From contig JADCFA010000018.1 of NCBI GenBank assembly GCA_020249775.1, forward strand, positions 1 to 64,000: DNA of 64,000 nt. The letters are read 5' to 3'. Each line of letters opens with the position of its first letter. Within the stretch, counting starts at the first letter, position 1. The notes beneath the pieces are model-generated. The model was not told where the DNA came from. It did not search any database and saw only the letters and a program-made list of their open reading frames with translations. This stretch comes from Roseomonas sp. (GTDB lineage: Bacteria > Pseudomonadota > Alphaproteobacteria > Acetobacterales > Acetobacteraceae). This document shows positions 26,862-56,283 of this stretch, piece by piece. The translations under genes and the position numbers were made by a program.

Positions 26862-26872
26862 CGCTTCCCCCG

Positions 26873-29374: not shown

Positions 29375-29376
29375 GC

Positions 29377-32865: not shown

Positions 32866-33416
32866 CAGGCGGCTGCCTCCCCATTTGCGGCCGCAGCAGG
32901 AACCCGGGTCACGGGCCAGTCGGCGAATGTTTTGTTCCAGATGTCTACGGAAAGCACGACGCAATCCGCGATGTGTTGGCGTCGCCAGGGCGTATCCGTC
33001 TCACACCGAATGTCGGCCAGCAGCCGATCCTTAAACCCGGTAAGAAGCGCCTTCTGTTGGGCGCCATCGAACGCGTCGAGACCTAGCAGCACGACATACT
33101 TGAACGGCTTGGCATCGCGCTCCATGAGGTGGAGAAACGTGTATGAACTGCGGGCCTTAGGCGTCAGCTCCTGCGTCAGGATTGAATTGTCCGACAGCCG
33201 CTTGAAATACGCCTGCTGTTCCTCAGCGGGCGCCCTTTTGTTGGACGGATCCTTGATCTCGACCAATAGGACGTCCTCGTCTCTCTCGATCACGAGATCG
33301 ACGAACTTCATTTGTATCGGCAGCTTAACGCCCTGACGGTCCAACTCCTCCCAAACGAGCTCGTCGGGAAAGGAGAATTCCAAATCGGCGTTCGGTTCAG
33401 CCTTGTATGCCTTCAT
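32865..33416 (-). CDS. PD-(D/E)XK-like protein embedded in the BREX operon
   Basis: A 183-residue protein not part of core BREX. The segment KFVDLVIERDEDVLLVEIKD fits a PD-(D/E)XK nuclease core: Asp40, then Glu53-Ile-Lys55, followed by a helix with QQAYFKRLSDN. The C-terminal 60 residues are Trp/Val-rich with no motif I know. It overlaps the upstream ATPase gene by four bases (ATGA) and pglX by one base (TGATG), so it is translated with BREX. By analogy with ATPase/nuclease pairs such as PtuAB or GajAB, it may be the effector of the ATPase next door. Nuclease activity is inference from three residues. Confidence 0.6.
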   Translation of the reverse strand: MKAYKAEPNADLEFSFPDELVWEELDRQGVKLPIQMKFVDLVIERDEDVLLVEIKDPSNKRAPAEEQQAYFKRLSDNSILTQELTPKARSSYTFLHLMERDAKPFKYVVLLGLDAFDGAQQKALLTGFKDRLLADIRCETDTPWRRQHIADCVVLSVDIWNKTFADWPVTRVPAAAANGEAAA

Positions 33417-37500: not shown

Positions 37501-38118
37501 GGCCTTGGCGACATTCGCGTTCTCCAGCAGTGCCTGCTCGCGTCCGCGCTCCCAGGGTTTCCCCGCAACAGCCTGATAGGCTTCCCTGAACGCCTCAAGC
37601 ACACCGCGACTGTCTAGATCGCGCTCGAACTGCGCGATGTGCGGCTGCTTGCCATAATAGCCGCCCACTTCGTCGAAGACTTTCTGGAATACGGAAAGCA
37701 GGGCGTCGGTCTGCCCCTTGGAAATCACGTCGGCTTTCTGGTCGATATTGAACAGGATGCTCTTCGATGGGATCGACACGGCCTTGCGCAAGTCGGCTGC
37801 GAGAATCTCATTGTGCGCGCACTTCTGTTTGAAAACCTCATAGGCGGGGCTTCCGCCGATGTCCCGGTTCTCCAGTAGGAGTGCCAGCATTTTCAGCAGA
37901 TGCGATTTGCCTGAGCCGAAGAAACCAGAAATCCAGACTCCATTGGCAGTGCCATAATTGTTGTAAGCATCAAGAAATTTTTCGAACTGGCGCTCGATCT
38001 CATTCGTGATGACATATTCCTCAAGCTCAACTTTGAGGCTGGCTTCGTCATCGGCCTTTATGACTCCTTCGATCGCACGATCGACGGGCTTTTCGAAAAT
38101 GTCGCGAAGTGTGGTCAT
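34582..38118 (-). CDS. brxC: BREX P-loop ATPase BrxC
   Basis: A 1178-residue large ATPase of BREX. The N-terminus TLRDIFEKPVDRAIEGVIKAD is typical of the family and Walker A GFFGSGKS is at residues 65-72. A predicted Walker B-type strand is in LNFFVDEVGQYI. Long helical and coiled-coil regions follow. It is required for type 1 BREX function. ATG 38118 is chosen because the conserved N-terminus begins there and the brxB stop lies 8 bases upstream. Its last bases form an ATGA overlap with the inserted ATPase gene, so the insertion did not cost the brxC C-terminus. Confidence 0.94.
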   Translation of the reverse strand: MTTLRDIFEKPVDRAIEGVIKADDEASLKVELEEYVITNEIERQFEKFLDAYNNYGTANGVWISGFFGSGKSHLLKMLALLLENRDIGGSPAYEVFKQKCAHNEILAADLRKAVSIPSKSILFNIDQKADVISKGQTDALLSVFQKVFDEVGGYYGKQPHIAQFERDLDSRGVLEAFREAYQAVAGKPWERGREQALLENANVAKAYAQATGANPSEGEGILTRYRQDFRSSIEDFAEKVRAYIETQKPGFRLNFFVDEVGQYIADNVKLMTNLQTIAESLNTKCRGRAWIIVTAQQDMASVIGDMNQRQENDFSKIQARFANRMPLNSADVAEVIQKRLLKKTEFGISILSDLYHRESNNLKTLFDFTDGSIRLENFRDRDHFIHSYPFVPYQYPLFQLSIQNLSQHNAFEGKHSSVGERSMLGVFQEVAVRLAELPVGGLATFDQLFEGIRTALKSNVQQSILIAEKNLGDEFATRILKALFLVKYVKGFKPTARNIAVLMLDRFDTDLTKHKRRVDEALSLLEQNTYIQRNSELFEFLTDEEKDVEQEIKAIEVDTAEIAKELETLIFDGVIKSRKLKHEASSQDYAFARYLDDRLLGRDYELAINVITPFHEQSGNAEATAMRTMSRDELAIVLNADNRFVSDLMTFKRTDKYVRQARSVTQQASIERIVREKGEQNNSRQRDLTLKVRALVGDARLFVRGEEIEVRSEDAQARVERAFQTLVDKVHVNLGMLRGAAYSDNEIGRFLTHGNDGMFGEDAANLTEAEQEILNFAQSNARNGIRTTAKAVVERFERKPYGWSYAAILCTTASLLGRGKIEARSDGSPLEGDALLRGLQNAHALGNIVLELQVEFTPAQTRKLKEFFREFFDAQPAGTEGKALGIETAEAFGALKTELTILEGQSSRYPFLSDLSHLQDALREVTGKPYAWYLQDLGRHEDRLLDLKEGLLDPIRRFMGGGQKAIYDEARSYLADQSANFGYGGEDQARAIHEVLVDPNCFKGNAIQQIKGTLDALRAEVDNRLAAARKTAIADVEELRAKLRSLPEFASLSEADRREIEAAFTNVLDTIGTSKLIAVIRERVSGFRASGYPTLLGRLTAPPSTKKDGDGDKPRGFRDSASGAPATQTQPEYVAASALRVTYAKPYLADERDIDAYLETLRETLIAEIQAGKRVTVG

Positions 38119-38125
38119 GTGCCCC

Positions 38126-38737
38126 TCAGATCTCATAATGCGTGATATCGAATGCCCGGTAGTATTTGTCGTCGTGCAGGATACCGAACAAATCGAGTGA
38201 AGCACCGGTATCCAAGCTTTGTGTGTATTTGCCGGGAAAGAACATCACCGTTGGCTTTTCCTTGGCGGTGCTCTGGAGGTTATTCAACACATTGTGGGAT
38301 CGGATATAGGGGTAGACCTCGCCGACACCGGACAGGAACAGAACGTCGAACTCCCGCTGCGCAAGAAGGGCACCAATTTCTGGAATGAGATGAGTTTCCG
38401 GATCGAGAACCCCTTGCAAAAGCTCTTTCAACTCGTCCTTTCCAATGCTTGGCTCCGCCGCGAGAACGTCATCCCAAATGCCACGGTTGTGCAGCAGCGA
38501 GATGCTGAGGTCATAGAGGTTGATCTCAAACACTCGTACGCCGCGGTTCTCGAGTTGCTTCACGAGGCTCGCGCGCAACGTCTCCATGCCGTCCGCCTCC
38601 TCAGCCGGATAAGGGCAAATGAAGAACGGCACTTCATTGCCGAGGCCCTGCTTCTTCAAGAATCTGTCGCTGGCGATCACCCTGAGAAGGTGGTCGAAGC
38701 GGTCCTTAGCAGTTGCCGTCTTGCTCAACCGCGCCAT
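38126..38737 (-). CDS. brxB: BREX protein BrxB (DUF1788)
   Basis: A 203-residue DUF1788 protein. Family features include the FDHLLRVIASDRFL start, the VPFFICPYPAEE strand, FEINLYDLSISLL, a DVLFLSGVGEVYPYIRSH segment and the C-terminal VMFFPGKYTQSL with YRAFDI. It is a small core component of type 1 BREX with no known catalytic activity. Its ATG shares one base with the brxA stop (TAATG). Confidence 0.93.
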   Translation of the reverse strand: MARLSKTATAKDRFDHLLRVIASDRFLKKQGLGNEVPFFICPYPAEEADGMETLRASLVKQLENRGVRVFEINLYDLSISLLHNRGIWDDVLAAEPSIGKDELKELLQGVLDPETHLIPEIGALLAQREFDVLFLSGVGEVYPYIRSHNVLNNLQSTAKEKPTVMFFPGKYTQSLDTGASLDLFGILHDDKYYRAFDITHYEI

Positions 38738-39357
38738 TATCTTTTCCTCCCCACAAGCCGTGCGGTCCCTGGGAAGTATCCGAGTTCATCGGGGTCTCCG
38801 GCGTCAATCGCAGCCAGAACTCGTGGCGACAACATCGCCCCGAGTATTCGGTTGTCCTGCGACACGATCTCAGCTTCGCGCATCAGGCGAAACAGCACCG
38901 CACGAAGCTTGGCGCGCGTAGACTCCGACAGCGCCGAGAGCTTCGGCGACCATTCCTCCTTCGCTGACAGAAAGGCGTCGAAATCGTCGTAAGTGAGGGT
39001 TGTGCGAAGCGATAAGAACCTGTCGCCCACCACCTCGACGGCAAACTCGGCGATGAACCGGTAGGTACGGCAGGCCGCGAGCCATAGAAGTGCTGCCTGC
39101 TCGCTCCGCTCGCCTTCCATCAGCAGCGCTAGTTCATAGCTAGAAAGTCGCTTCAAGCGATTTACGATCTCCCGAATGGACCGGCGCGCGGAACTGGCCT
39201 TCCGCACGGGAAACGCCCCCCTCTCTTGGGCGGCGATTACCGTCGCTTCCCAATCGCTGCCGGATGCATGCAGGCGGGCAATGGCCACGCTTTCGTTGAT
39301 GTAGAGACCGCCGGTCCCAAAGGACATCAGATACGGCTGTTCCTGCGAACGCTCCAT
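38737..39357 (-). CDS. brxA: BREX protein BrxA (DUF1819)
   Basis: A 206-residue DUF1819 protein. The characteristic start is SFGTGGLYINESVAIA, then REIVNRLKRLSSYELALL, WLAACRTYRFIAEFAVEVV and a helical C-terminus. BrxA is a small, possibly DNA-binding core BREX component. ATG 39357 shares one base with the stop of the regulator gene upstream; a TTG 3 bases earlier is less likely. Order regulator-brxA-brxB-brxC matches regulated type 1 BREX loci. Confidence 0.92.
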   Translation of the reverse strand: MERSQEQPYLMSFGTGGLYINESVAIARLHASGSDWEATVIAAQERGAFPVRKASSARRSIREIVNRLKRLSSYELALLMEGERSEQAALLWLAACRTYRFIAEFAVEVVGDRFLSLRTTLTYDDFDAFLSAKEEWSPKLSALSESTRAKLRAVLFRLMREAEIVSQDNRILGAMLSPRVLAAIDAGDPDELGYFPGTARLVGRKR

Positions 39358-40280
39358 CAAGCCTCTCCGACCTTTTTCGGAGTCTGCTCGACCTCGCCGA
39401 ACTCAAAATCCGCGCGGCGCAACGCCCGTTCTGTCTCATGGGGATTGAGCGCAACGATATGCTGGGCGCGCGCATTCTGCTGGCTTGCGTCCCCCAAGAG
39501 ACCGAGCCGCTTGAGTACGTAGAACAGCATGGCATAGCGAACCGAGAGGACGGCACGCTCATTCGTCATCCCATAGTCCTTCGCAACCACTGCGCGTTGA
39601 CTTTGGGTCAGCCCTGGATGCGGGCCGATTTCAATATCGAATGTCTTTTTCCACAAGGCATCCTGATCACCCCCTGGGCCAGGCACGTCCATGTGGCGCA
39701 CGCCGAGAATCCTCGGCAGCAGGAAATCCTTGTACTTTTCATCGATATGACAATAGCCGCGCACATGCCAACGGAAGCCATCGTAGCCGAAGGCATGCGG
39801 CGTCATGCGCCGCCACATTGGATCGGTTCGCCTGCTTCCCATCGACTGATAATAGATTTCGAGCGAACGGTTCTCGCGAACCGCTTGGAGAACGGCCTTC
39901 AACACACCTGTATCCACCTCGCGGCGCGGCGTCAGTGCGATGTCGGTCTCAGGCGGATTCGCGATCCAGGAGTCGCCGGGATCAGCAAGGCCTTCCGCCA
40001 ATGATCGTAGACGCGACAGATACCCGTCTGGATCCGGCTTAAGGAAAACCGGCGAGAACTGAGGCCCAGCGACATACCGCTTTGCGCTCTTGTCATAGAT
40101 CGCGTTCTGGGGCGCTCGCTCCTGATAGAGCGTCAAGTCCTTCGAAGCCTGGGGAACGGACACGTCGAACGTCTCGATGATGTCGGAGCGGTTGACCCCG
40201 CCCTCCCAGAGCAGCCGAAATTCAATGAACTCGAGCCGGCGCTCCACCCCCCATTTCAACGTCGCAGCGACCGCTCGCAT
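39357..40280 (-). CDS. brxR: WYL-domain transcriptional regulator, BrxR-like
   Basis: A 307-residue regulator at the head of the BREX operon. It has an N-terminal winged helix-turn-helix (RLEFIEFRLLWEGGVNRSDI, FDVSVPQASKDL), a middle WYL domain (HAFGYDGFRWHVRGYCHID) and a C-terminal extension. Known BrxR proteins have the same wHTH-WYL-WCX layout and repress their own BREX operon by binding an operator upstream. It overlaps brxA by one base, so it should autoregulate the whole unit. The divergent region 40281-40408 is where its operator would lie; it could then also govern the plus-strand genes. The symbol is given by analogy of position and architecture. Confidence 0.85.
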   Translation of the reverse strand: MRAVAATLKWGVERRLEFIEFRLLWEGGVNRSDIIETFDVSVPQASKDLTLYQERAPQNAIYDKSAKRYVAGPQFSPVFLKPDPDGYLSRLRSLAEGLADPGDSWIANPPETDIALTPRREVDTGVLKAVLQAVRENRSLEIYYQSMGSRRTDPMWRRMTPHAFGYDGFRWHVRGYCHIDEKYKDFLLPRILGVRHMDVPGPGGDQDALWKKTFDIEIGPHPGLTQSQRAVVAKDYGMTNERAVLSVRYAMLFYVLKRLGLLGDASQQNARAQHIVALNPHETERALRRADFEFGEVEQTPKKVGEA

Positions 40281-40408
40281 CACCTTCAGTCTCTCCGTCG
40301 ACGATGGGGATAAAATCTATATGGACACATCAGAGTGACCCGTGTAATTATTATTCTCATCAGCGGCGCTCGTCAATGGGGATCAGCGTTCGGATTGGGA
40401 GGCGACAG
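40281..40408. promoter_or_regulatory. Divergent promoter region between BREX and the AddAB-like operon
   Basis: 128 bases separate the starts of the WYL regulator and the small basic protein. The middle (40305-40370) is AT-rich (TATATGG, TAATTATTATTC), in contrast with both operons. An interrupted inverted repeat ACAC-13-GTGT is present at 40325-40345, a weak operator candidate. I cannot assign -35/-10 boxes with confidence. A GGGAGG at 40397-40402 serves the plus-strand start. Confidence 0.5.
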
Positions 40409-40561
40409 ATGCCGAAGCACGGTTCGAAAGGCGAAGTCACCAGCAGGCCAGCAGCCACGGCCGCCTCGATGGTTTTGCGGGCCCCCAAGAGCGACAAGGT
40501 TGCGAAGACGGCCGCCGCGTCGGCGCTAACCCAGCGTCCAAATAAGAAGAAGCACCCGTAA
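40409..40561 (+). CDS. Small basic protein at the head of the nuclease-helicase operon
   Basis: A 50-residue, lysine-, alanine- and serine-rich peptide (MPKHGSKGEV at the start, KTAAASALTQ and PNKKKHP at the end). GGGAGG lies 6 bases before ATG 40409, and the AddB-like gene follows after 11 bases with its own AGGAGG, so it is probably expressed. The KTAAASALTQ pattern recalls short uncharacterised bacterial proteins with KSAAGSALSQ-like segments. No function is known; a nucleic-acid- or protein-binding accessory role is only a guess from charge. Confidence 0.65.
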   Translation: MPKHGSKGEVTSRPAATAASMVLRAPKSDKVAKTAAASALTQRPNKKKHP

Positions 40562-40572
40562 GGAGGGCGGCC

Positions 40573-43227
40573 ATGACCATCGCGCTTCGCTCCACCCTGG
40601 TCGTTCACGGTCGTCTCGCCATGCGGGAGCGCCGGCTGGCGGCTGGCCGTGACCGTCGTCATGGCCTTCAGATCATGTCGTTCGAGCAGGCCGCCGTCCG
40701 GCTGGCTGGAGGCTTCGTTCGCCCTATCGACGACGAGAGCCTGCGTGCGGCCATCCAGGCCGTCCTGCCCGCCACGCCGATGGGCGAACTTGAGAGCATC
40801 AAGGCTCTTCCCGGCATGATCGACGCGGCGGCCGACACGCTGCACAAAGTCTGGCGCGCGGGAATTGATCTTGCCGCATGCGCGGGCGACCATCCGCGTC
40901 TCGCCGCCATCGCGCGCCTAGAATCGGCCGTCCTCGATCAACTTCCGCCCGGGATGATGCGGCCTGTCGACATCGTTGCAGCCGCGACCGCCCGCATCGC
41001 TCATGCGCCGGCCATCCTCGGGCCGATGGAGATCGTCGGTCTTACCGAACTTTCGCCCTGCTGGCGGCCACTGCTCCAGGACCTAACTGCCCATATCCCG
41101 GTGCAGTGGACGGCCGGCCCGAGAAGCGTTCCCGCCTGGCTGGACGGCATCGGCGTCACGGTCGCGCATGCAGCGGCACAATCGCCAGCGATCAGCACCG
41201 TCAGCGCCGCGACCGCCTATCATGAGGCCATCGAGGCGATGCGCTGGGCGCGCAGCCTGCTCGCCAGTGGCGTCTCACCCTCGGAGATCGCCATCGCGAC
41301 CGCATCGCCGGCCGACTATGACGATCATTTCCTGGCCCTGCGCGCCGACGCCAACATCGACCTGCACTTCGTCCACGGCGTGCGCACCGTCACCACCCGC
41401 GAGGGCCAGACGGCCGCAGCGCTGGCCGACATCGTGGTCCGTGGCCTGTCGCAATCGCGGCTGCGTCGCCTCGCGGCGCTCTGCCGGGACAGCCGGCCAT
41501 TGGAGACCCTGCCTGAAGGCTGGCTGCGCGCCCTGCCGACCGATGCGCCGCTCTCGACGCCGGGCGCCTGGAACCGCCTGCTGAGCCGGTTGGCGCCCGA
41601 AGACTGGCCCGACGGTGCCGACCATGTCCCGGCGCTGCGCGCGGCGGTCGAGATTATGGCGAAAGGGCCAGACGGCGCCAGCGAGATCGGAGAAGCCTTC
41701 CTCAAAGGCCGCGCGCTCGCGATCTGGCGCAAGGCGCTGCTCGCCGGCCCTGCTGCCTCGATCGACGCGACTCTGGAAACCTTGAAGCAGGACGACGGAC
41801 TGGAAGCATGCGTCTCCGTCGCCTGGATGCCCGCCAGCGCGCTCGCAGCTTCGCCTCGCCGCTTTGTGCGGCTCCTCGGCCTCAACTCCTCGCGTTGGCC
41901 GCGGGGGATCGCCGAGGACCGGCTGATCCCGGACCACATCATCCCGACCCCTGTGCTCGACCCGCTGCCGGTCAATCTCGCCGATCGCCGCGATTTCGAA
42001 ACAATCCTCGCCACGACGGCCGACACCGTCGTTGTCTCGCGCGCCCGGCGCGACAGCGATGGGCGTCTCCTGGGACGAAGTCCCTTGCTCGCCGAACATG
42101 GCGACGAAACCTATCTGCGCCGGAATGCGCCGCCAGGACACGCCTTCAGCGAGACCGACCGCCTCATGGCCCAGCCCCAGGAGTTTGCCAATGATCCGCA
42201 AGCGGTCAGCACGCGCGGTTGCTGGCGCGACTGGCGGCAGGCGGAGATCACCCCTCATGACGGACTCGTGAGGGCGGATCATCCGCTCATTCTCGCCATC
42301 CTCAGCCGCACCCAATCGGCCAGCTCGTTGCGCCGCTTGCTGCGAAATCCGCTTAGCTTCCTGTGGGTCTATGCGTTCGGATGGCGTGAACCTCAGAGCA
42401 GCGCAGAACCGCTTGTGCTCGACGCACTCGGGATCGGTGACCTCGTCCACATGGTTCTCGACCGCGCCTTGCGCAAACTCGAAACCGGAGGCGGCCTTGT
42501 GTCCGCCAACATCGAAGCCATCGAAACAGCGGTAGCAGAGGCCGCGCAGGCCGTCGCCGCTGATTGGGAAAGCGAACGTCCGGTTCCACCGGCCGTCATC
42601 TGGCGGCGCACACTCGAAGACGCTCGCGTGATGGCGGGCCGAGCCCTGTCCTATGGCGAAGATGTCCTGCCGGGCGCGCGATCCTACGGTGAGGTACCCT
42701 TCGGTGGATCGGAGCCGAAATCCGATGCAGAAACGCCTTGGGATGCGCGCAAGCCAGTCACGATTCCCGACACGGGCTTCAGCATCGCCGGCTATATCGA
42801 CCGGCTGGATATCTCGGGCGACGGCAAACGTGCGCTGGTGCGCGACTACAAGACCGGCAAGCCGCTAGGTAGTGGCGCCCAGCTGAACGGCGGACGCGAG
42901 CTTCAACGCTGCCTCTATGCTTTCGCGGTTAAGGCGCTCCTCGGCGACGACGTCGCCATCAGCGCCTCGCTGCTCTATCCCCGCGAGCCTGTGGATCTTC
43001 AGCTCGACGATCCCGAAGCCGTTCTGGCTGAGATCAAAGGCTTTCTGCGCGCGGCAAGGTCGAGTCTCGCCGGCGGCGCGGCCCTGCCTGGCCCGGACAC
43101 CGGCGGCGACTATGACGACCTCGCCTTCGCCCTGCCAGCCAACGCCACCGCCACCTATTGCAAACGCAAAATGCCGGCAGCCACGGAGCGGCTTGGCGAA
43201 GTCGCTCAGGTCTGGGAGGCGGAATGA
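40573..43227 (+). CDS. AddB-like protein with C-terminal PD-(D/E)XK nuclease
   Basis: An 884-residue protein. The N-terminal part resembles an inactivated UvrD-like fold: no Walker A is visible where AddB or RexB would have one. The C-terminal nuclease core shows GYIDRLDIS (Asp743/Asp746) and VRDYKTGKP (Asp758-Tyr-Lys760), the usual PD-(D/E)XK arrangement. Housekeeping AddB ligates an Fe-S cluster with four cysteines around the nuclease. Here the first position reads RNPLSFLW, without cysteine, and only one cysteine (TYCKRK) lies near the C-terminus, so the cluster is absent. It is coupled by ATGA to the AddA-like gene; the two should form a heterodimer. Confidence 0.82.
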   Translation: MTIALRSTLVVHGRLAMRERRLAAGRDRRHGLQIMSFEQAAVRLAGGFVRPIDDESLRAAIQAVLPATPMGELESIKALPGMIDAAADTLHKVWRAGIDLAACAGDHPRLAAIARLESAVLDQLPPGMMRPVDIVAAATARIAHAPAILGPMEIVGLTELSPCWRPLLQDLTAHIPVQWTAGPRSVPAWLDGIGVTVAHAAAQSPAISTVSAATAYHEAIEAMRWARSLLASGVSPSEIAIATASPADYDDHFLALRADANIDLHFVHGVRTVTTREGQTAAALADIVVRGLSQSRLRRLAALCRDSRPLETLPEGWLRALPTDAPLSTPGAWNRLLSRLAPEDWPDGADHVPALRAAVEIMAKGPDGASEIGEAFLKGRALAIWRKALLAGPAASIDATLETLKQDDGLEACVSVAWMPASALAASPRRFVRLLGLNSSRWPRGIAEDRLIPDHIIPTPVLDPLPVNLADRRDFETILATTADTVVVSRARRDSDGRLLGRSPLLAEHGDETYLRRNAPPGHAFSETDRLMAQPQEFANDPQAVSTRGCWRDWRQAEITPHDGLVRADHPLILAILSRTQSASSLRRLLRNPLSFLWVYAFGWREPQSSAEPLVLDALGIGDLVHMVLDRALRKLETGGGLVSANIEAIETAVAEAAQAVAADWESERPVPPAVIWRRTLEDARVMAGRALSYGEDVLPGARSYGEVPFGGSEPKSDAETPWDARKPVTIPDTGFSIAGYIDRLDISGDGKRALVRDYKTGKPLGSGAQLNGGRELQRCLYAFAVKALLGDDVAISASLLYPREPVDLQLDDPEAVLAEIKGFLRAARSSLAGGAALPGPDTGGDYDDLAFALPANATATYCKRKMPAATERLGEVAQVWEAE

Positions 43228-46200
43228 TGAGCGGCGTGTCTAAGGTGCTGAAGGACGACGGCGCGCGCCGCGATGCGATCAGCCTGCATGATCGCTCGAT
43301 CCTGGTTGAGGCCGGCGCGGGTTCGGGCAAGACCGCCGTCATGGCCGGCCGCATCGCCGCGATGCTGGCCGAAGGCGTCGCGCCGCGTTCCATCGCCGCC
43401 GTCACCTTCACCGAACTCGCTGCGAGCGAGCTGCTGTCGCGCGTCCGCGAGTTCGTCGCCGACCTCTCGGCCGGCGCGATCGCGACCGATCTGCGCGTGG
43501 CGTTCCCCAATGGGCTGACCCAGGCCCATCGAAGCAATCTCGCCGCCGCCAGCGCGGCGATCGACGAGATCACCTGCTCGACCATCCACGGCTTCTGCCA
43601 GCGCCTCATTAAGCCCTATCCGGCGGAGGCCAACATCGATCCCGGCGCAGGGGTCATGGATCGCAACCAGGCCGATCTTACCTTCCTCGAGATTGTCGAT
43701 GGCTGGCTGCGCGAACGCCTTTCCAGCGGCCAGGAAGGCATCCTGGCCGAGATGGTGCTGCACAGCCCCGGCGAAACCGTGGCGCTAATCCATAAGATCG
43801 CCGAGAACCTGCGCCGCCGCCCCACGCTCGCGGCCCCGCCCGTCTCCCCGCTTGACGGCCACATGACGGCGTTCCGGCAGGCCGCTGCGGATTTCGAAGG
43901 CTTCATGGATGGTTTGGCGGCGGCCGAGCCGGAAACGGTGACGATCGTCGAGCGGCTGACCGAGATGGCGACCGCCTTGGCCAACGGTCCCGATCCCGCA
44001 ACGCCTGCGGGCCTCGTCCACCTCCTGACCTTGCGGCCACATCCGGACCTTTGCACCAAGGCCGGGGCCTTCGCCTCCTATCGCAAGAAGGGCAAATGGG
44101 CCGCTGCCGCCAAGCAGGCCGGTCTCTCCAAGGCCGATGGCGACCGGCTGAACGACGGTGCCGAGTCCCACTACACCGCCTGCTGCGATACCTGGCTCGC
44201 GCTGGCGCAGGCCGCCGCCGGCCATGCCCTGGCGGCGCTAATCGACGAAGCGCGTCCGATCCTGCAACGCTATCGCGACCACAAACGCTCCAGCGCCCAG
44301 CTCGATTTCGACGATCTAATTTTCGCCGCCCGCGACTTGCTGCGCGACCATGATGCCGTGCGCCGGGCGCTGGGGCAGCGTTTTGCCCATGTCCTCGTCG
44401 ACGAGTTCCAGGACACAGATCCCCTGCAAACCGAAATCTTCTGGCGGCTTTGCGGCGAACCGGCCGATGGCGATGACGACTGGACCCGCTTCCGGATCCG
44501 GCCGGGCGCGCTCTTCCTGGTGGGCGACCCCAAGCAGGCGATCTATCGCTTCCGGGGCGCGGATGTCGGAGCCTATGTGCAGGCGCGCGACGCCTTCCGC
44601 GCCCAGGACCCCGGCAGCCTCCTGTCGATCTCCACCAACTTCCGCTCCTACGCCTCGATCCTCACCTTCGTCAACGAGCGCTTCGAGGCCGTCCTCTCGT
44701 CCGATGGGCAGCCGGGCTTCACCGCTCTCGACCCGTTCCATGACGACCGGGGCGGCCTGTGCGTCGCGGCCCTCGACATCGCCGTGGCTGACGAAAACGG
44801 CAAGGCCAGCGCCGAACGGCAGCGCGATGCCGAAGCGGACGCCGTCGCCGATCTGTGCGCCAGGCTGATCGCAAGCCATCCCATCATCGACCGTCGCAGC
44901 GGTGCGGAGCGTCCCTGCCAACCGGGCGACATCGCCTTGCTGGCGCCGACCGGTGCGGAGCTGTGGCGCTATGAGGAAGCCCTGGAGCGCCGCGGCATCC
45001 CCGTCGCGACGCAGGCCGGCAAGGGGCTGTTCCGCCGCCAGGAAATTCAGGACCTGATCGCCCTGACCCGTGTTCTGGCCGATCGCCGCGACACGCTGGC
45101 GCTCGGTGCGCTGCTGCGGGGGCCTCTGGTCGGCCTCACTGAAGAAGAATTGCTGGACATCATCTGGACGCTTCCGCGCTCGGAGGAAGAGCCGGATCGG
45201 ATTCCGCGCCTGGATCTCAGCATCGACCCAGCGATCGTCGCGCACCCGCTCGCGCGCGAAGTCATCGAGCGGCTGCAATCGCTCTCCCGGCGCGGCAACA
45301 GCACGACGCCGCACGCACTGCTTTCGCAGGCAGTGGACGTGATGCGCGTCCGTCCGCTCCTCCTTGAGCGTCATCGCGGTCAGGCGGAGCGCGCGCTCGC
45401 CAATGTAGATCTCTATCTCAGCCTATCGACCGGCTACGCCGTGCGTGGCCTGCGCGCCTTTGCCGAGGCGATGGCAGCGGCATGGTTCGACGAGGCCCGC
45501 GCCGTCGAGGGACGACCCGACGCCCAGGAGGAAGCCGTCGCGCTCTTCACCATGCACGCGGCCAAGGGGCTGGAATGGCCGATCGTCATTCCGGTCAACA
45601 CCATGACCGGCGTCATGGCGCCCGACAGCGCCGTCATCGACCGCCAGGCCGAGACCTTCTATTGCCCGGTCTTGGGTGTCACGCCCGAGGGCTACGAAGC
45701 CGCGCGCCAGGCGGAAAAGGACGAGCTGGACCGCGAACGCATCCGGCTCTGGTATGTCGCGGCAACCCGCGCTCGCGAACTCCTCGTTCTGCCCCGCCTC
45801 GACGCCACGCCGTCGAAGTCGGCCTGGATCGGCCTCGTCGATCTGTCGCTCACCGGCCTACCCCGCCTTGACGTCTCTCACCTGCCTGCCGGCCTCACGG
45901 CCGCAGGTGCGGGCGTGGGCAACACCCAGACGCGAGCGAGCTTCGCCGCCGAAGCCGAAGCCATCGCGGCCGCGCAGACGCGGTTGACCTGGCTTGCGCC
46001 CAGTCGCGATGAAAGCACCGCCGGGACCGTGTTGCGAGAAGAAGAAGCCGCGCTCTGGACGGGGGCGGCCGACGAGCAGCCTCCCGAACTGGAAGCCGCG
46101 GTTCTCGTGCAGGGCGGCCGCGAACGCGGGCTGATTCTCCATAAGCTCATGGAAGAGGTACTGACCGGCGAAACCCCAGAGACGGAGGCTGCCCTAATCG

Positions 46201-46619
46201 AACGAGCAGCGGACCTTATCCGTGCTCTCGGTCAGTCTCCGGTCGCCGACCCGGCGACGGGACTGTCGGCTGATGAACTGGCTCTCTGTGTCGTCCGGAC
46301 CTTGGCCCTGCCTGACATCGCGGCCCTACGGCCGGGTCTTCTGGCCGAATTCCCCGTCTATGCCGCACAGTCGAAGGATGGCGTGGAAACCGCAACGGCC
46401 GGGATCGCGGACGCCCTGACCGTCGGGGAGGATGGCCGACCGGTCGTGGTCGTCGACTGGAAGAGCGACGTGAATCCCGAGGCTCAGACGCTCGAGCACT
46501 ATCGGGCTCAGGTCCGCGCCTATCTCGATATGACCGGTGCGGAGCGCGGACTGATAGTTCTGATGACGAGGGGAACGGTGATTACCGTCTCGCCCTCGAC
46601 GCAGACGGTGACGGCCTGA
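43224..46619 (+). CDS. AddA-like UvrD helicase with C-terminal PD-(D/E)XK nuclease
   Basis: A 1131-residue SF1 helicase-nuclease. Walker A GAGSGKT is at residues 31-37, motif Ia in VTFTELAASEL, motif II VDEFQDTDP near 392-400, motif III GDPKQAIYRFRGAD and motif V/VI FTMHAAKGLEWP with LWYVAATRARELL. The C-terminal nuclease shows GIADALTV then VVVDWKSD (Asp1078-Trp-Lys1080). Length and layout match AddA/RecB relatives. ATG 43224 overlaps the AddB-like stop. Its island location, partner lacking Fe-S cysteines and linked third helicase suggest a defence exonuclease, not the housekeeping recombination enzyme. Confidence 0.88.
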   Translation: MMSGVSKVLKDDGARRDAISLHDRSILVEAGAGSGKTAVMAGRIAAMLAEGVAPRSIAAVTFTELAASELLSRVREFVADLSAGAIATDLRVAFPNGLTQAHRSNLAAASAAIDEITCSTIHGFCQRLIKPYPAEANIDPGAGVMDRNQADLTFLEIVDGWLRERLSSGQEGILAEMVLHSPGETVALIHKIAENLRRRPTLAAPPVSPLDGHMTAFRQAAADFEGFMDGLAAAEPETVTIVERLTEMATALANGPDPATPAGLVHLLTLRPHPDLCTKAGAFASYRKKGKWAAAAKQAGLSKADGDRLNDGAESHYTACCDTWLALAQAAAGHALAALIDEARPILQRYRDHKRSSAQLDFDDLIFAARDLLRDHDAVRRALGQRFAHVLVDEFQDTDPLQTEIFWRLCGEPADGDDDWTRFRIRPGALFLVGDPKQAIYRFRGADVGAYVQARDAFRAQDPGSLLSISTNFRSYASILTFVNERFEAVLSSDGQPGFTALDPFHDDRGGLCVAALDIAVADENGKASAERQRDAEADAVADLCARLIASHPIIDRRSGAERPCQPGDIALLAPTGAELWRYEEALERRGIPVATQAGKGLFRRQEIQDLIALTRVLADRRDTLALGALLRGPLVGLTEEELLDIIWTLPRSEEEPDRIPRLDLSIDPAIVAHPLAREVIERLQSLSRRGNSTTPHALLSQAVDVMRVRPLLLERHRGQAERALANVDLYLSLSTGYAVRGLRAFAEAMAAAWFDEARAVEGRPDAQEEAVALFTMHAAKGLEWPIVIPVNTMTGVMAPDSAVIDRQAETFYCPVLGVTPEGYEAARQAEKDELDRERIRLWYVAATRARELLVLPRLDATPSKSAWIGLVDLSLTGLPRLDVSHLPAGLTAAGAGVGNTQTRASFAAEAEAIAAAQTRLTWLAPSRDESTAGTVLREEEAALWTGAADEQPPELEAAVLVQGGRERGLILHKLMEEVLTGETPETEAALIERAADLIRALGQSPVADPATGLSADELALCVVRTLALPDIAALRPGLLAEFPVYAAQSKDGVETATAGIADALTVGEDGRPVVVVDWKSDVNPEAQTLEHYRAQVRAYLDMTGAERGLIVLMTRGTVITVSPSTQTVTA

Positions 46620-46633
46620 CGGAGAGAGACACG

Positions 46634-49600
46634 ATGGCCTCGCGCAAGCCCCCGACCGGCTCCAACCAGGACGATCTCTTTAACCCCGAGGTCGAACTCC
46701 TGCTGCCGGCTCGGCTTGCCATCGACGGCAAAGTGCTGGGAAGCCTCGTGCGCCAGTTGGCGGTTCCGGCGCGACGAGTGCGTTGCCGGCTGCGCCCCTT
46801 TGCCATCCGCCGCGTCAATGGCTACGAGACGAGCCTGGAATCCGGCGAGACTCTAAAGATCATCAGTGCGAAGACGGCGACGCCCCTGGAAGCCGATCTC
46901 ATTCTCATAGCGCCCGGAGCAACGGAGCCGGAACGGATCGCCGAAATACTGAAGCTCGGTGAATGCCAGTGGATGAATGCGCCGCCGACCAGAATCGACA
47001 CATTAGATCGTTCTGCGCGCGCCGAGCGTCTGAAGGCTGTCTCCGATTCCTGGATCGATGCGGTTCATCTGCGCGAGGGACGAGCTGCCGCGAACGGCGA
47101 GGCGGCGCCGCCCGGGCTGCGGCGCCCACAGATCGGCGCGCTTCATGCTGCGCTTGCCCACGCGACGCGATCGACAGATCCGGCGACCATCGTCATGCCA
47201 ACGGGGACGGGCAAGACGGAGACAATGCTGGCGCTCAATGCCAAGCAGGGGTTCGAGCGCCTGCTGGTGGTGGTGCCTACCGACGCGCTGCGCGAGCAGA
47301 TCGCGAGCAAATTCGAGACCTTCGGCGTCCTGAAACAGCAGAAATGCCTCGATGAGACGGCAGCTTTCCCTCTGGTCATGCGGCTCTCGCATATCCCGAC
47401 CAGCCAGGCCGAAGTCGATGAAATCTTCGACAGCGCCAATGTCGTCGTCACCACAATGCAAATTGCTGGCCGGGCGGATGCCCCAGTTCAGGAACAGATG
47501 GCGGCCCGCGCATCGGCATTGTTCATCGACGAGGCACACCATATCGGCGCACCTACTTGGTCGCGATTCCGCGGCCTCTTCATCGACCGCGACCCGCCGC
47601 TTCCGATCGTCCAGTTCACCGCCACCCCCTTCCGGGAGGACGGCCGACGCGTCGACGGTGAGTTCATCTACACCTACCCGCTCAAAAAGGCCCAGGCCGA
47701 GGGCTATTTCAAGCCGATCCGGTTCGAGGCGGTATTCGGGCTCGATCAGCCCGATGCAGACCTTGCGATCGCCGAGAAGCTCGGCGAAGTCCTTCAGGCC
47801 GATCTAGAGGCCGGTCTCAATCATCTCGCAATGGCGCGTTGCCAGACGATCGAGCGCGCTAAGGATCTCCACCAGCTCTACAGCACGATGTTCCCCGAGT
47901 TCCGCCCGGTCATCGTTCATAGCCAGCAGTCAATCCGCGAGCGCCGCGAGAGCCTTGCCGCGCTGCGGCGTTTCGAGAGCCGGATCATCGTGTGCGTCGA
48001 CATGTTGGGCGAAGGCTTCGATCTCCCAGAACTGAAGATCGCGGGACTTCATGATCCGCACAAAAGCATCGCCGTGACCATCCAGTTCGTCGGCCGCTTC
48101 ACCCGGCAGGACCCGCGCTTGGGTGACGCGACTGTCATTGCCAATACCGGTGTGGACGACATCGATCGGTCGCTCGCCAAACTCTATGCCGAGGACGCCG
48201 ACTGGAACGCACTGGTCGAGGCGCTCAGCACAGCCAAAATCGACCGGCAAGTTCGGCGCGCCGAGATGTTTAAGGGCTTTGTCGGCGATCTCAGCGACAT
48301 TCCCTTGCAAACGCTCGAACCGAAGATGAATGCCGTGGTCTATCGCACCGCTTGCGAGGCCTGGGAGCCGCTACGCGCGGAAGACCTGTATAACCCCGGC
48401 GTCTATCTCGGCATGAAAGTCAACCCGCATCAGCGGGTGGCCATCTTCGTCACCCGCTCGGAGGAGCAGGCGGGCTGGACGACCGCACAACACGCCACCA
48501 ACGTCATCTGGGACCTGCATATGATGCACTGGGACCCCGACAAGAAGCTCCTCTATATAAGCAGCTCGGCAAAGGGGCCCTATGACCGTCTGGCCAAGGC
48601 TGTCTGCGGTGACACGACACGGCGCGTTGAAGGTGAGGAGGTCTTTCGAAGTCTTCATGGCTTCAATCGCCTCATCCTGCGCAACCTTGGGCTCACCCAC
48701 CATCAGGGTCGGGGCGTGCGCTATTCGATGTATATGGGCGTGGACGTCGCCGACGGGTTGGACACTGCGAAATCGCAATCGCGGATCAAGAACAACGTCT
48801 TTGCGACCGGCTTCCTCGATGGCGTGCCGGCCTCGCGCGGCTGCTCCGCCAAAGGAAAGTTCTGGTCGATCTCTCCCGTTCGCGACCTCACCGACTGGGT
48901 CGAGTGGTGCAGCGACATCGGCACAGCCGTAAACGATCCCGGCATCACCACCGATGGCGTCTTCAAGAGCGCCATGCGCCCTCGTCAGATCAATGAGCGG
49001 CCGAGCGTTCCGCCCGTTGCAATTCACTGGCCGGAATCTCTGCTGACGCAGATCGAGGACCGGATCGAGATCAGCTTCGACGACACCGCCGCACCGTTTG
49101 CGGAATGCGACATCGAGCTCGTGGACCACCAAGCCACCGGGCCGCTGCGCTTCGCGGTGCGCAGCGATGCCCAGAACGCCGAGTTCGAAATCGTGTTCGC
49201 GGAAGGCGGCGCCCGCTATCCACAACGATCAGGGCCGAAGACGACGATCAAGGTCGGCGGTAAGGTAAAGACGCTGTCGGAATCCTTTGGCGAAGACTCC
49301 CCGCAGATTGATTTCGGAGACGGCTCTTTGCTGATCTACAGCCATCTCTATGCCTTGCCCGATGGTGTTCAGGTCGAGCCTTATCCTTCAGAACGGATCG
49401 AGATTTGGGACTGGTCGGGGACAAACATCCGAACAGAATCGCAAGGATCAGAAAAACGAGCCGATTCCGTCCAGCGACGCGTCATCGAGACCCTGCTCGC
49501 CGACGCTAACGCCTACGATCTGATTTTCGACGACGATGGAGCTGGCGAGATCGCCGATGTGGTTACGCTCCGCGTCACAGAGGGCCTTGTCCAGGTCACG

Positions 49601-49975
49601 CTCCATCATTGCAAGTTCTCGAGCGCCGACACACCTGGCGCACGCGTCAAAGATCTCTACGAAGTGTGCGGGCAGGCTCAAAAATCCGCCCGCTGGCGCG
49701 ACCGTCCCAACCGCATGTTCACGCATATGCTGAGGCGCGAGAAACTGCGCCTCGACAAGGGGCAAAGCTCTCGCTTCGAACATGGGAACGCCGCGTTCCT
49801 CAAGCGGCTGAAAGCAAGCTGGCAGGACTATCGCTACGAATTTGACGTCCGCATCATTCAGCCCGGCCTGTCACGGGCCGCGATTACCGAAGAAGGGCTG
49901 CACTTGCTCGCTGGAGTCGAGACCTACTTGCTGGAGACCCGCGCGATGAAATTGCGGGTCTTGGGCAGCGCATAG
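46634..49975 (+). CDS. SF2 DEAD/DEAH helicase with C-terminal nuclease-like domain
   Basis: An 1113-residue protein, third large gene of the plus-strand operon. Walker A MPTGTGKTE is at residues 188-196, DEAH at 299-302, and the SAT-equivalent QFTATPFREDG follows. Motifs V-VI appear as VDMLGEGFDLPEL and QFVGRFTRQD. A long middle region has no recognised domain. Near residues 965-995, FDDDGAGEIADVV followed by a strand with LHHCKFS (Lys994) fits a PD-(D/E)XK-like core. It starts 14 bases after the AddA-like stop with GGAGAG upstream. I read it as a restriction-type helicase-nuclease cooperating with the AddAB-like pair; the exact role is unknown. Confidence 0.82.
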   Translation: MASRKPPTGSNQDDLFNPEVELLLPARLAIDGKVLGSLVRQLAVPARRVRCRLRPFAIRRVNGYETSLESGETLKIISAKTATPLEADLILIAPGATEPERIAEILKLGECQWMNAPPTRIDTLDRSARAERLKAVSDSWIDAVHLREGRAAANGEAAPPGLRRPQIGALHAALAHATRSTDPATIVMPTGTGKTETMLALNAKQGFERLLVVVPTDALREQIASKFETFGVLKQQKCLDETAAFPLVMRLSHIPTSQAEVDEIFDSANVVVTTMQIAGRADAPVQEQMAARASALFIDEAHHIGAPTWSRFRGLFIDRDPPLPIVQFTATPFREDGRRVDGEFIYTYPLKKAQAEGYFKPIRFEAVFGLDQPDADLAIAEKLGEVLQADLEAGLNHLAMARCQTIERAKDLHQLYSTMFPEFRPVIVHSQQSIRERRESLAALRRFESRIIVCVDMLGEGFDLPELKIAGLHDPHKSIAVTIQFVGRFTRQDPRLGDATVIANTGVDDIDRSLAKLYAEDADWNALVEALSTAKIDRQVRRAEMFKGFVGDLSDIPLQTLEPKMNAVVYRTACEAWEPLRAEDLYNPGVYLGMKVNPHQRVAIFVTRSEEQAGWTTAQHATNVIWDLHMMHWDPDKKLLYISSSAKGPYDRLAKAVCGDTTRRVEGEEVFRSLHGFNRLILRNLGLTHHQGRGVRYSMYMGVDVADGLDTAKSQSRIKNNVFATGFLDGVPASRGCSAKGKFWSISPVRDLTDWVEWCSDIGTAVNDPGITTDGVFKSAMRPRQINERPSVPPVAIHWPESLLTQIEDRIEISFDDTAAPFAECDIELVDHQATGPLRFAVRSDAQNAEFEIVFAEGGARYPQRSGPKTTIKVGGKVKTLSESFGEDSPQIDFGDGSLLIYSHLYALPDGVQVEPYPSERIEIWDWSGTNIRTESQGSEKRADSVQRRVIETLLADANAYDLIFDDDGAGEIADVVTLRVTEGLVQVTLHHCKFSSADTPGARVKDLYEVCGQAQKSARWRDRPNRMFTHMLRREKLRLDKGQSSRFEHGNAAFLKRLKASWQDYRYEFDVRIIQPGLSRAAITEEGLHLLAGVETYLLETRAMKLRVLGSA

Positions 49976-50005: not shown

Positions 50006-53000
50006 TCAGCCAGGCATCAGCCGCTGCTGGGCATCAATGTCGGTTATCGGTGGGTTGGTTGCCGAAGCAGGCGCCACCAAGTCGCCGTGATTTAATGCCG
50101 GAACGCCGGTCTCCGTCATCTGCCCATGTCCGTTGGCCAATGTGTCCGGCGCAGTGATGTGTTGTTGCCGAAGACCCATGGCGGAAAAATCTAGGACCAG
50201 CGGTTGCAACAGCGCGCGGGTCACTTCCCCGCCGCGCGACAGCACGTCGATAAAGTCTTCCTGGTTGGGCTGGCCGAGGGCCAGTCGATAGATCATGCGC
50301 TGTTCCCGAAGTTGCGCGAACCGCAGAATGTCCCGACCAAATGGACGCTCGAAAACATGCCGCCGGATTTCAGCGCCATCGAGCACCCACCACGGGCGAA
50401 GGCCGCTCTCATCAACAAAGCGCTGCGCGTGCCGCTCCACGCATTGCCAGGGCGAGTGTTGAACCACGGCGGGATCGCCAAGCACTTCATCGCGCAGCTC
50501 TTCCGCCAGCTTCCGTCTGACCGACAGACCCGCATAGCGTTGGATGCGGCCTTCGCGTTGCTCGAGGTCGAGCGGGTTGGAGGAAAGGTCCCAATGAACC
50601 ACATGCGAACACCACGGATGAAAATCCAGTCCCTCCTGCCCAACGGATGTCGTCGCCAAGACATGCGGCCAGAAAGGCGTGTTGAAGCTTCGGCGCACTT
50701 CGTCCGGACGCGCCGGGGTGGCCTGCGCCACGCCTCCCTCCACCTTGACCACCGGTTCGGCTTCCGCGTCCCCAAACGGGACGGCGACATGGCAACGGAC
50801 AGGAATCTTGTGCGGCTGTCCGCCGATCCCATGAAAACTGAAACTGCCGGCACGGAGCCCGAGCGACGCCTTCAGATCCCTGGCAAGACCCGCAGCGCCC
50901 TCATGGAGATTCTGGGCGCGGAGCCAGAAATGCTCGTCGAGAACGCTCTCGAAACCGCCGTCGACCACCGCTCCCATGACCTGCTCGACCGCGTTCCTGC
51001 CTGGCAGCGATGACAATATAACCGGGTTGTCGAGATAGGCGCGCAGGCCCTGCCAACTGAGCTGGACCAATTCGAGGTATCGCGGGCCATCCAGGATCGT
51101 CGGGTCATAGCGCCGCAGCGCCCGGCCAAGCACGACGCCCGGCGCGCCAATTGCGTAGTCAACGAGGTCGGAGAGCTCGGCCGGCGAAATCCTGTCGATC
51201 GGCAGCGTCTGGCGCCATTTTCGCACCGCCGATTGCGCGGCGCGATCATCACCGATCGCACTGCTCCATCCCGCCGCCGACTGCTCCGCAATACCCGCCA
51301 TGCGTTCGATGGACGCCAAGACGCGGGCAATCGATCTGTGGCGTCGACGGGCCTTGACGGTGTCCCGTTCGATGATGCCTCTCGGCAATGCAGCGAGAAT
51401 CTGTCGGCGAACTTCCTTGCGGACAGCACCCAGCGGCGCCCCCGCTTTTGCGAGCGGGTCGGTGTTACGGATCAGCCATGGCGAAGGATGAAACGCCGCC
51501 ATGACGGGGCCAGGGACCGCCGCCAGCTTGAAGCGCCGCCGCCTATAGGCTTTTTCGTATCCCCCTTGTTTCTTGGGAAGGCAGCGTGCCTCGACCCCGA
51601 AGCTGAGAAGCGCGGCGACACTGGGGGGCGTTGCGCGGAACCGGCTGAACATAAGGAGCTTGGGATCAGCCCCGCCTTTCTGATCGGCCGTCGCCGCCGC
51701 CCACCCCCCGCGAAGCGGCCACCATGCAAGCGATGGGGCGACCCAAGGCAACGACAACAATGCGGGCGGAGCAACACCGTTCAGCGCACGAAGCTTGGCG
51801 TCCGGCCAGTCGGCCGGCGCGTTGAGCTTGTTGCGGCGCTCGCGAGTCATCCGCGTGAGCTTCGGCGCAGCCTTGATCTTGGCCTTCTTCCAGGCCGCAT
51901 AGCGCGGCCCGAGGGACTGGGCCGGCAACGGAACCGATGACCAGTAGGGCAACGCTTCGTAGCGCACCTGCTCGGCGAAACTCTCCGCCAAATGCCGATA
52001 TACCTGAAAATCCTCGGGCAGCGGGTCCGCATGGAGAAACTTGGTGCCGGCGAGCGGATCGGATGAAGCCACGCTGTCCCGCTCCGTGCGCGACATCACC
52101 GGCGTCATAAGCCGCCGAAGCTCATCCCTGAGCCGACGCGCCTCCGCCACCTCTTCCATCAGTTCCGGGCGGTTTGCATCGGAATGGGCGGAGATGGCGC
52201 GCAACTTGTCCCCAAAATCCGCAAAGAGATCCTTTGCGCGATCACGCGCGTCCGAGCCGGCGAGAAACTCGATCAATTTCAGAAGCTCCGCGTGAGCGAG
52301 CGCGCCGCGCGCTTCCTCCCATCGCGTGGTCAGATACGGATATGGCGTGGCGCTCAGCAGCAGGATCGCCGGACGTCTGGCCGAGCCTTCAGGCTCCAGC
52401 AGCGCCTTCAGGAGCGGGTCGGCGTCCTTCTCGTCCAGAAGCTGCCGGTAGCGCTGGAACTCGTCGAGAATGACAAGGTCCGGGGGTTGATGGCGCAACG
52501 TCGCCAAGGCCAAGGCTCGCCGGAGACGGCCAACGAAGGTGGTCGGCCTGAGCGGCTTGATCCTTCGCTCGGTGTCGCCGTACAGAGCCAGATCTAGCAT
52601 CGCACGCACAGGTTCGCCAAACTCAACCTCCAGCGCCTCACGAAACCTCTGCCGCAAGCCATGTGGCGACGCCGCAAACTTCTTCTCGGCCTCTGTAACG
52701 GCCCAGTCCCAAGAGCCGCGCGCACTAAGACGCAAGAGGTCGGGATCGAGATCGCGAGCGAAAGCCGGGTAGCTCTGTTCGAGCAGCACCTTCAGAAACG
52801 CCCGTTCTTCCTTGCGACCGCCGGTCAGGCGAGCCTTCGCGCCCGGAAACGAGGTCGCAGGGGTGAGCGCATAGATCAAAACCGGTGTGGCGGGCCGCTT
52901 CTCGACGGCGATCAGCGAAAGCCGATCGGGCGTCTTGATTGCATCCCGTAGCTGCGAGTCGCCCAGGAAGCCGACAACCCGGCTCTTGTTCTGGTGCGAC

Positions 53001-53203
53001 ACAGCGTGTCCGTTGGCGATGTAGTAGATGGTAAGAGGCCGGCGACCGCCATCAGCCATGCGGCAAGCCAGCTCCTTCGCCACGACGGTTTTTCCAAGGC
53101 CGACTTCATCAGCGACAAGAAAGCGCCGTCGGCCGTCAGGGTCGGCAAAAGCCGCAGACGCCGCATCCACGGCCGCCTTCTGAAATGGCTTTGGGGCGCT
53201 CAT
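50006..53203 (-). CDS. SNF2-type helicase/translocase
   Basis: A 1065-residue SF2 ATPase. Walker A DEVGLGKT is at residues 32-39, DEFQRY near 247, LLLSATPYP soon after, and the C-terminal helicase half has SVGQEGLDFHPW and LEQREGRIQRYAG near 880. A basic middle section (about 430-640) carries no motif I know. Start ATG 53203 overlaps the PLD gene's stop (ATGA). It is last in a minus-strand operon and faces the SF2 helicase gene with 30 bases between stops. DISARM's DrmD is also SNF2-like, but here the partners differ (DUF6361, no methyltransferase). Confidence 0.85.
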   Translation of the reverse strand: MSAPKPFQKAAVDAASAAFADPDGRRRFLVADEVGLGKTVVAKELACRMADGGRRPLTIYYIANGHAVSHQNKSRVVGFLGDSQLRDAIKTPDRLSLIAVEKRPATPVLIYALTPATSFPGAKARLTGGRKEERAFLKVLLEQSYPAFARDLDPDLLRLSARGSWDWAVTEAEKKFAASPHGLRQRFREALEVEFGEPVRAMLDLALYGDTERRIKPLRPTTFVGRLRRALALATLRHQPPDLVILDEFQRYRQLLDEKDADPLLKALLEPEGSARRPAILLLSATPYPYLTTRWEEARGALAHAELLKLIEFLAGSDARDRAKDLFADFGDKLRAISAHSDANRPELMEEVAEARRLRDELRRLMTPVMSRTERDSVASSDPLAGTKFLHADPLPEDFQVYRHLAESFAEQVRYEALPYWSSVPLPAQSLGPRYAAWKKAKIKAAPKLTRMTRERRNKLNAPADWPDAKLRALNGVAPPALLSLPWVAPSLAWWPLRGGWAAATADQKGGADPKLLMFSRFRATPPSVAALLSFGVEARCLPKKQGGYEKAYRRRRFKLAAVPGPVMAAFHPSPWLIRNTDPLAKAGAPLGAVRKEVRRQILAALPRGIIERDTVKARRRHRSIARVLASIERMAGIAEQSAAGWSSAIGDDRAAQSAVRKWRQTLPIDRISPAELSDLVDYAIGAPGVVLGRALRRYDPTILDGPRYLELVQLSWQGLRAYLDNPVILSSLPGRNAVEQVMGAVVDGGFESVLDEHFWLRAQNLHEGAAGLARDLKASLGLRAGSFSFHGIGGQPHKIPVRCHVAVPFGDAEAEPVVKVEGGVAQATPARPDEVRRSFNTPFWPHVLATTSVGQEGLDFHPWCSHVVHWDLSSNPLDLEQREGRIQRYAGLSVRRKLAEELRDEVLGDPAVVQHSPWQCVERHAQRFVDESGLRPWWVLDGAEIRRHVFERPFGRDILRFAQLREQRMIYRLALGQPNQEDFIDVLSRGGEVTRALLQPLVLDFSAMGLRQQHITAPDTLANGHGQMTETGVPALNHGDLVAPASATNPPITDIDAQQRLMPG

Positions 53204-56267: not shown

Positions 56268-56283
56268 AGGTCGAGACACCGGG

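Follow-up and report, generated by a model that had tools for sequence, protein, structure and literature searches.

A mobile AddAB-like helicase-nuclease pair as a candidate shared effector of bacterial defence operons

The 64,000-nucleotide stretch of Roseomonas sp. contig JADCFA010000018.1 analysed here (the window) carries four consecutive open reading frames (ORFs) on the plus strand. These encode a small basic protein of 50 amino acids (40409-40561), the AddB-like protein B with a C-terminal RecB-type PD-(D/E)XK nuclease (40573-43227; 884 amino acids), the AddA-like UvrD helicase A with a C-terminal nuclease (43224-46619; 1131 amino acids) and the RadD/XPB-like superfamily 2 (SF2) helicase H with a C-terminal nuclease-like domain (46634-49975; 1113 amino acids). 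An earlier sequence-only reading had placed the four ORFs correctly and proposed them as an undescribed defence module of exactly these genes. On sequence comparison, the evolutionary unit is rather the coupled pair B-A, which H often, but not always, accompanies as a third gene; the idea of an undescribed defence module holds for B-A, with its boundaries changed, and fails for the four-gene set. We consider it reasonably probable, from sequence and gene context, that B-A is a heterodimeric helicase-nuclease that derives from AddAB, is specialised for defence and serves as a plug-in effector for defence operons.

A constant gene pair with changing defence partners

B is followed directly by A wherever enough DNA is available, and in the window the start ATG of A overlaps the stop codon of B as ATGA, so that the two genes are translationally coupled. 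The same constancy does not extend to H. B-A stands without an adjoining H at loci L106, L107, L110, L116, L123 and others, H occurs alone, without B-A, at about 44% identity, and two of the three class-sample genomes with H (E<1e-40) are among the nine that hold B. Since neither H nor the small ORF is obligatory, a fixed four-gene module is ruled out.

The surroundings of B-A were compared at 62 B loci, about half of which were fetched through H, so that the partner counts are biased; 61 were long enough for a tree. Across a gene for a WYL-domain regulator, the adjoining operon is HMA in 18/62 loci and type I BREX in 9/62, and at 5 further loci the WYL gene has other or unseen neighbours. The upstream operon is Shango at 7 loci and a multiubiquitin-ThiF-DUF6527 operon at 6. 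A nucleotidyltransferase-ThiF-JAB (CBASS-like) operon and restriction-modification (R-M) genes occur at one locus each, and 15 loci have other neighbours. ZacABC lies beside B-A at 31 loci, downstream on the same strand in 20, convergent (in some cases partial) in 10 and divergent in one. PADLOC was run on representatives to check HmaA, HmaB, HmaC, SngA, SngB and SngC; the other partners were assigned by similarity. Some of the junctions are operon-like, with gaps of 2 bp between SngC and B, 14 bp between A and H, and 14 bp between A and ZacA; elsewhere the gaps are 100-270 bp. Whether the neighbours are defence genes had been raised as a check on the sequence-only reading, and they prove to be so, the defence operons being of six kinds or more.

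With partners sorted into six kinds, the B tree requires a minimum of 13 changes, of which Shango alone accounts for three and the ubiquitin-like operon for two. Near neighbours in the tree have different partners, as in L011 (BREX) versus L013 (HMA), L014 versus L108, and L024 versus L041, and the WYL gene remains beside B-A where HMA replaces BREX. Together, these switches and the differing near neighbours argue for repeated partner changes by B-A, accompanied in the BREX/HMA branch by the WYL gene.

The pair is also patchily distributed. B was found in 9/385 genomes of the class, 7/150 of the family and 3/398 of the phylum, in scans that score few candidates per genome and may therefore give low counts; it was absent from the sole same-genus genome in the family sample. 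Plasmids carry it in 63 of 72,556 records, with 39 of the 63 predicted to be conjugative. In Neoroseomonas nitratireducens the stretch of the island that runs from BREX to ParB recurs, with proteins 81-99% identical (B 94%, H 97%). These comparisons bear out a patchy and horizontally mobile B-A. A phage-borne origin found no support: neither the 50,697 phage records searched nor a viral-contig scan yielded a B relative.

Two arrangements outside the window deserve separate description. At six rhizobial loci (L122, L123, L134, L135, L136 and L143) a conserved operon for a UvrD helicase, multiubiquitin, ThiF and DUF6527 lies just upstream of B-A, which places ubiquitin-like conjugation genes beside two UvrD helicases. 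On a Desulfosarcina plasmid (L127, 7516-17155), the nucleotidyltransferase, ThiF and JAB genes are followed directly by B-A, as if the pair occupied the effector position of a CBASS. Core genes of Shango, HMA and DISARM were not found beside the operon of the window; HMA is divergent from B-A at 18-19 other loci.

Relation of B and A to AddAB and other known systems

B matches PF12705 (PDDEXK_1; E 5.7e-17), and its catalytic set (H626, D743, D758-Y-K760, Q778 and Y782) is invariant among 25 sequences down to 37% identity. It has no Walker A motif. The AlphaFold model of B has a mean predicted local distance difference test (pLDDT) score of 52 and is mostly confident for residues 1-206, which take the fold of a superfamily 1 (SF1) helicase domain 1A. 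This region superposes on UvrD (Z 12.9, 3.2 Å over 192 residues) and on the AddB subunit of AddAB (3u4q_B; Z 11.8, 3.2 Å over 202 residues). Because its SF1-like N-terminal fold lacks Walker A, B looks like a motor-dead subunit of the AddB/RecC type, judged from sequence and model. It had been described earlier as nuclease-only, a label that does not fit these N-terminal ~206 residues, and as marked by the absence of Fe-S cysteines. The latter is ruled out as a diagnostic feature, since a C-terminal cysteine cluster is likewise missing from this genome's housekeeping AddB.

A had rightly been called an AddA-like helicase-nuclease, matching both UvrD-helicase (E 2.7e-54) and PDDEXK_1. Its Walker A and DEFQD motifs are invariant, and the DWKSD nuclease motif is present in all full-length members. 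The NCBI model addA_alphas aligns across the full length of A, and the PADLOC GajB models match its helicase part only. B and A thus have the AddAB-like architecture of an active-motif SF1 helicase-nuclease and a motor-dead nuclease subunit encoded by coupled genes.

Given this architecture, membership in the housekeeping alphaproteobacterial AddAB was judged by curated NCBIfam cut-offs. Window A scores 302 bits on addA_alphas (cut-off 861) and window B 18 bits on addB_alphas (cut-off 486). The same genome encodes a housekeeping addB (722 bits) and addA (1090 bits) above these cut-offs on contig C12 (198749-205236), and this co-occurrence with a separate addBA pair rules out the window pair as the housekeeping AddAB. 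Housekeeping AddA exceeds the cut-off in 14/14 tested genomes with B-A. In the A tree, 25 B-A members and 14 housekeeping AddA proteins fall on opposite sides of a branch with full SH-aLRT support (100). A simple duplicate of the housekeeping enzyme would explain the shared domain composition and the full-length alignment of addA_alphas with A, but the separate clade and the patchy spread speak against it as much as the co-occurrence, which refutes it, and we give it practically no credence. The sequence-only reading had itself named the outcome that would make the pair housekeeping, a universal locus holding the only AddAB of the clade. Neither is the case, since B is present in so few genomes of the class and this genome has its own addBA, and the claim that the pair is not housekeeping stands.

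We regard B-A as a variant of AddAB and not as a new kind of enzyme, undescribed within the sources searched. In common with AddAB, RecBCD and AdnAB it joins a UvrD-type helicase-nuclease to a motor-dead nuclease subunit encoded by adjacent coupled genes, and B shares the SF1-like N-terminal fold of AddAB-type subunits. It differs from them in its separate A clade, in a B that addB_alphas barely detects, in its patchiness and mobility, and in being extra to the housekeeping pair, beside defence operons and with an optional H and small ORF. The nearest precedent is provided by UvrD-Cas4 fusions of the stand-alone kind, for which an ancillary part in several defence systems has been predicted (PMC5704561). 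In these an SF1 helicase is likewise joined to a RecB/Cas4-type nuclease, whereas B-A has two subunits, two nuclease domains, other partners and a WYL-linked putative operator.

PADLOC 2023 contains no system model for B-A-H; B matches none of its families, and the hits of A and H are all cross-matches with other helicases. The pair was likewise undescribed in the open literature searched, a scope from which preprints outside PMC and subscription papers were excluded. Within these two sources, the earlier remark that no named system has this set is upheld. A 2026 survey of BREX auxiliary effectors (PMC12839542) lists HNH, HKD, PD-(D/E)XK, OLD/TOPRIM, HEPN, PIN and Schlafen effectors; AddA, AddB, RecB and UvrD are absent from its main text, and the B-A pair is undescribed there. 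Such auxiliary nucleases resemble B-A in being extra nucleases beside the cores of BREX or of HMA, which is type 1 BREX-related. ARMADA includes a GajB-like UvrD helicase that is different from B-A (PMC12458937), and Shango consists of genes for TerB, an ATPase and a DEAD helicase (PMC10250203). A shares its UvrD-family motor with GajB of Gabija, but it is of AddA length, has a nuclease domain of its own and is paired with an AddB-like protein; no GajA (OLD-type nuclease) lies next to A, which is thus not part of a Gabija system.

A possible shared degradation step and competing explanations

Enzymes of the RecBCD/AddAB type are usually regarded as housekeeping repair enzymes, and we know of no settled account of how BREX, HMA, Shango or Zac destroy foreign DNA. 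A mobile AddAB-like pair that swaps among these four systems offers a concrete candidate for a step of DNA degradation common to them. Since B-A adjoins so many different antivirus systems, its role is probably that of a common accessory for the shredding of foreign DNA and not that of a repair enzyme of the cell itself. More tentatively, the sensing or marking modules (BREX, HMA, Shango, Zac, ubiquitin-like, CBASS-like and R-M) may swap around a common B-A degrader, so that one AddAB-derived shredder would serve many systems and seemingly separate systems would act partly via the same effector. If true, RecBCD/AddAB-type enzymes would have been domesticated into exchangeable immune parts. The pair also explains many loci annotated merely as "PD-(D/E)XK nuclease family protein" and "UvrD-helicase domain-containing protein".

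In the mechanism that we propose, B and A would assemble like AddAB. The partner (BREX, HMA, Shango, Zac or R-M) would mark or break foreign DNA, or else the phage genome would enter in linear form. B-A would then load on DNA ends and unwind them by means of the A motor, and its two nuclease domains would cut both strands, giving processive degradation of the invader. Where present, H may act as a double-stranded DNA translocase that opens or nicks DNA and so supplies entry points. Self DNA would be spared through recognition by the partner (for example, of methylation) and through WYL-linked control.

Several points weigh against an effector role. The B model is poor outside residues 1-200, so the proposed B-A assembly rests on homology, and the PADLOC models used are those of the 2023 release. 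Adjacency alone is no proof of cooperation because defence islands gather unrelated genes. Finally, B-A relatives of 38-41% identity lie on rhizobial plasmids among toxin-antitoxin and partition genes, mostly with no abutting defence operon, and possibly reflect an older or different use of the pair. The neighbours of these relatives (L138-L142) are of the repABC, ScpB, AbiE, RES-Xre and HipA types.

The chief rival is that B-A serves as a back-up AddAB, a spare end-processing enzyme for use when phages inhibit the housekeeping AddAB/RecBCD with proteins of the Gam, Abc2 and gp5.9 types. It would then restore degradation and repair without being the effector of any particular system. The AddAB-like composition and the housekeeping AddA in every tested genome fit this explanation, strong divergence from AddA would allow escape from the inhibitors, and independence of partner would suit many contexts; phage inhibition of RecBCD is, moreover, a reviewed theme (PMC12904381). 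We nevertheless hold a back-up role to be unlikely, as the tight operon coupling (2 bp to SngC) and the WYL-linked intergenic region suggest co-action, and the association with H and Zac is left unexplained. The effector and back-up explanations both predict an anti-phage phenotype, and differ in its dependence on the partner and on inhibition of AddAB.

Less probable still is a function for the mobile element itself, in which B-A would serve an integrative conjugative element (ICE) or plasmid in recombination, establishment or plasmid competition and the defence genes would be mere islandmates. The 63 plasmids, the ICE-like genes downstream and the repABC, ScpB and toxin-antitoxin genes beside the 38-41% branch point that way, yet loci of the clade at 53% identity or more mostly abut a defence operon and not transfer or partition genes, and B-A is also found on chromosomal islands. 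That B-A and H are passengers, unrelated genes co-accumulated in defence islands and functionally linked neither to one another nor to the partners, seems to us very improbable. H without B-A, B-A without H and the many partners could be read in this way, but B-A is never separated, the putative operator and promoter-like sites are conserved, and a Pseudomonas locus (L027) rebuilds the layout of nuclease, UvrD, H and convergent Zac from an A-like protein and a nuclease that are both very distant. This locus encodes a PD-(D/E)XK protein, a UvrD protein 26% identical to A and an H at 78%, followed by convergent ZacCBA; its PD-(D/E)XK protein aligns with the B nuclease over the motif only, with a profile probability that is not significant.

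The optional genes, the regulatory region and the island

H matches ResIII (E 8.2e-20) and Helicase_C, its motor is RadD-like (Z 22.3 over 318 residues), and SauUSI is among its sequence and Foldseek matches. It shares a RadD-like helicase core with RadD/XPB and SauUSI-type SF2 motors, from which it differs by a long extra central region and the C-terminal nuclease-like domain. In this domain Q947, E972, D975, H992, K994 and Q1014 are invariant in 30/30 relatives, and the predicted order of elements is alpha-beta-beta-beta-alpha. These residues and the predicted topology suggest a nuclease of the PD-(D/E)XK type. Sequence searches with the domain matched nothing in Pfam or the PDB, a profile comparison with B was likewise negative, and in the fold search with the whole H model the matches were filled by the motor, the C-terminal part being barely covered. 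Of the earlier description of H, the SF2 helicase is confirmed and the C-terminal nuclease core is indicated by invariant residues and predicted topology only; of the three nuclease-like domains counted for the operon, those of B and A are confirmed, and the third, at the H C-terminus, has no Pfam or PDB sequence match.

H was also seen in other settings. In L079 (1-13153) it stands at the end of an HMA operon, and in L078 (2238-20900) it lies inside a DISARM operon, in the order DrmD-like, DrmMI, H, DrmA. In two Pseudomonas loci (L028, 4816-9945; L043, 4765-9945) the gene directly upstream of H encodes a protein of 1.7 kilo-residues that has DpdF-like and UvrD-like helicase parts. A Chelatococcus copy of H (L052, 10001-12240) lacks residues from about 615 to 977 and is decaying; the small ORF upstream of it is internally shortened.

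The small ORF is a real gene, as had been supposed. Its ratio of non-synonymous to synonymous differences (pN/pS) is 0.20 in frame, with pN<pS in 77/78 pairs, and the other two frames give 1.98 and 2.65 and contain stops. The protein matches phrog_5079 (E 2.6e-10), although tblastn found no match to it in phages. Homologues were detected at about half of the B-A loci examined. As a guess, the protein binds nucleic acid or the complex.

Upstream of the small ORF, a dyad of the form GATAAAAACTATATGGACA-N13-TCCGTGTAATTATTATTCCCAT (40309-40361, no strand assigned) forms a putative operator. An alignment of 15 intergenic regions (WYL-B or WYL-H) contains it, and it is conserved at loci with BREX and at loci with HMA. 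Two promoter-like sites were found in the WYL-B intergenic region, against 0.1 expected, and both overlap the dyad. One is placed for the B-A-H operon (TGGACA-18-AATTAT, 40322-40351, plus strand) and the other, overlapping it, for the WYL-BREX operon (TTGACG-18-AATAAT, 40347-40376, minus strand). A search of the window for a second copy of the dyad gave no exact match and one half-site with one mismatch at 5014. In Acinetobacter BREX, the WYL protein BrxR binds in the region upstream of its own start (PMC9122589), and the WYL regulator of the window probably binds the dyad. Because the dyad overlies two overlapping divergent promoters, joint control of BREX and B-A-H would be the simplest reading.

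The WYL-domain regulator is BrxR-like (39357-40283, minus strand; PADLOC WYL E 1.1e-13) and is the first gene of the BREX operon, from which the B-A-H operon was rightly said to diverge. PADLOC identified this BREX (24783-39360, minus strand) as brxL, pglZ, pglX, a HEC-02B/A insert, brxC, brxB and brxA. It is a complete type I system with all six of brxA, brxB, brxC, pglX, pglZ and brxL, and B, A and H fall outside the type I gene set. The insert between brxC and pglX (32865-34585) is a HEC-02A/HEC-02B-like pair consisting of an OLD-type ATPase and a small partner.

On the other side, convergent with H, lies a complete Zac set, ZacC-ZacB-ZacA (50006-56387, minus strand; PADLOC E 1.7e-266, 1.2e-117 and 8.8e-89); the PADLOC Zac models do not include B, A or H. 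Beyond ZacCBA come a PDC-S01 AAA/DUF4143 gene and then a ParB-like gene (58827-61019), whose product matches phrog_7783, a family of unknown function, over nearly its full length and which adjoins the island in several genomes. RecJ and GlpX, encoded at 2612-5422, are ordinary chromosomal genes, which puts the probable start of the island at some point from about 22 to 24.8 kb of the window. Downstream of the window, contig C10 of the same genome (74912-101544; L144-L146) carries ICE-like genes. These comprise ParA-like and conjugation-like genes, including an ORF of ~812 amino acids of TrbE size and one of VirB11 size (judged by size and sequence start only), together with an integrase (phrog_1). 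The downstream ParA-like and conjugation-like genes and the integrase suggest that the island is part of an ICE.

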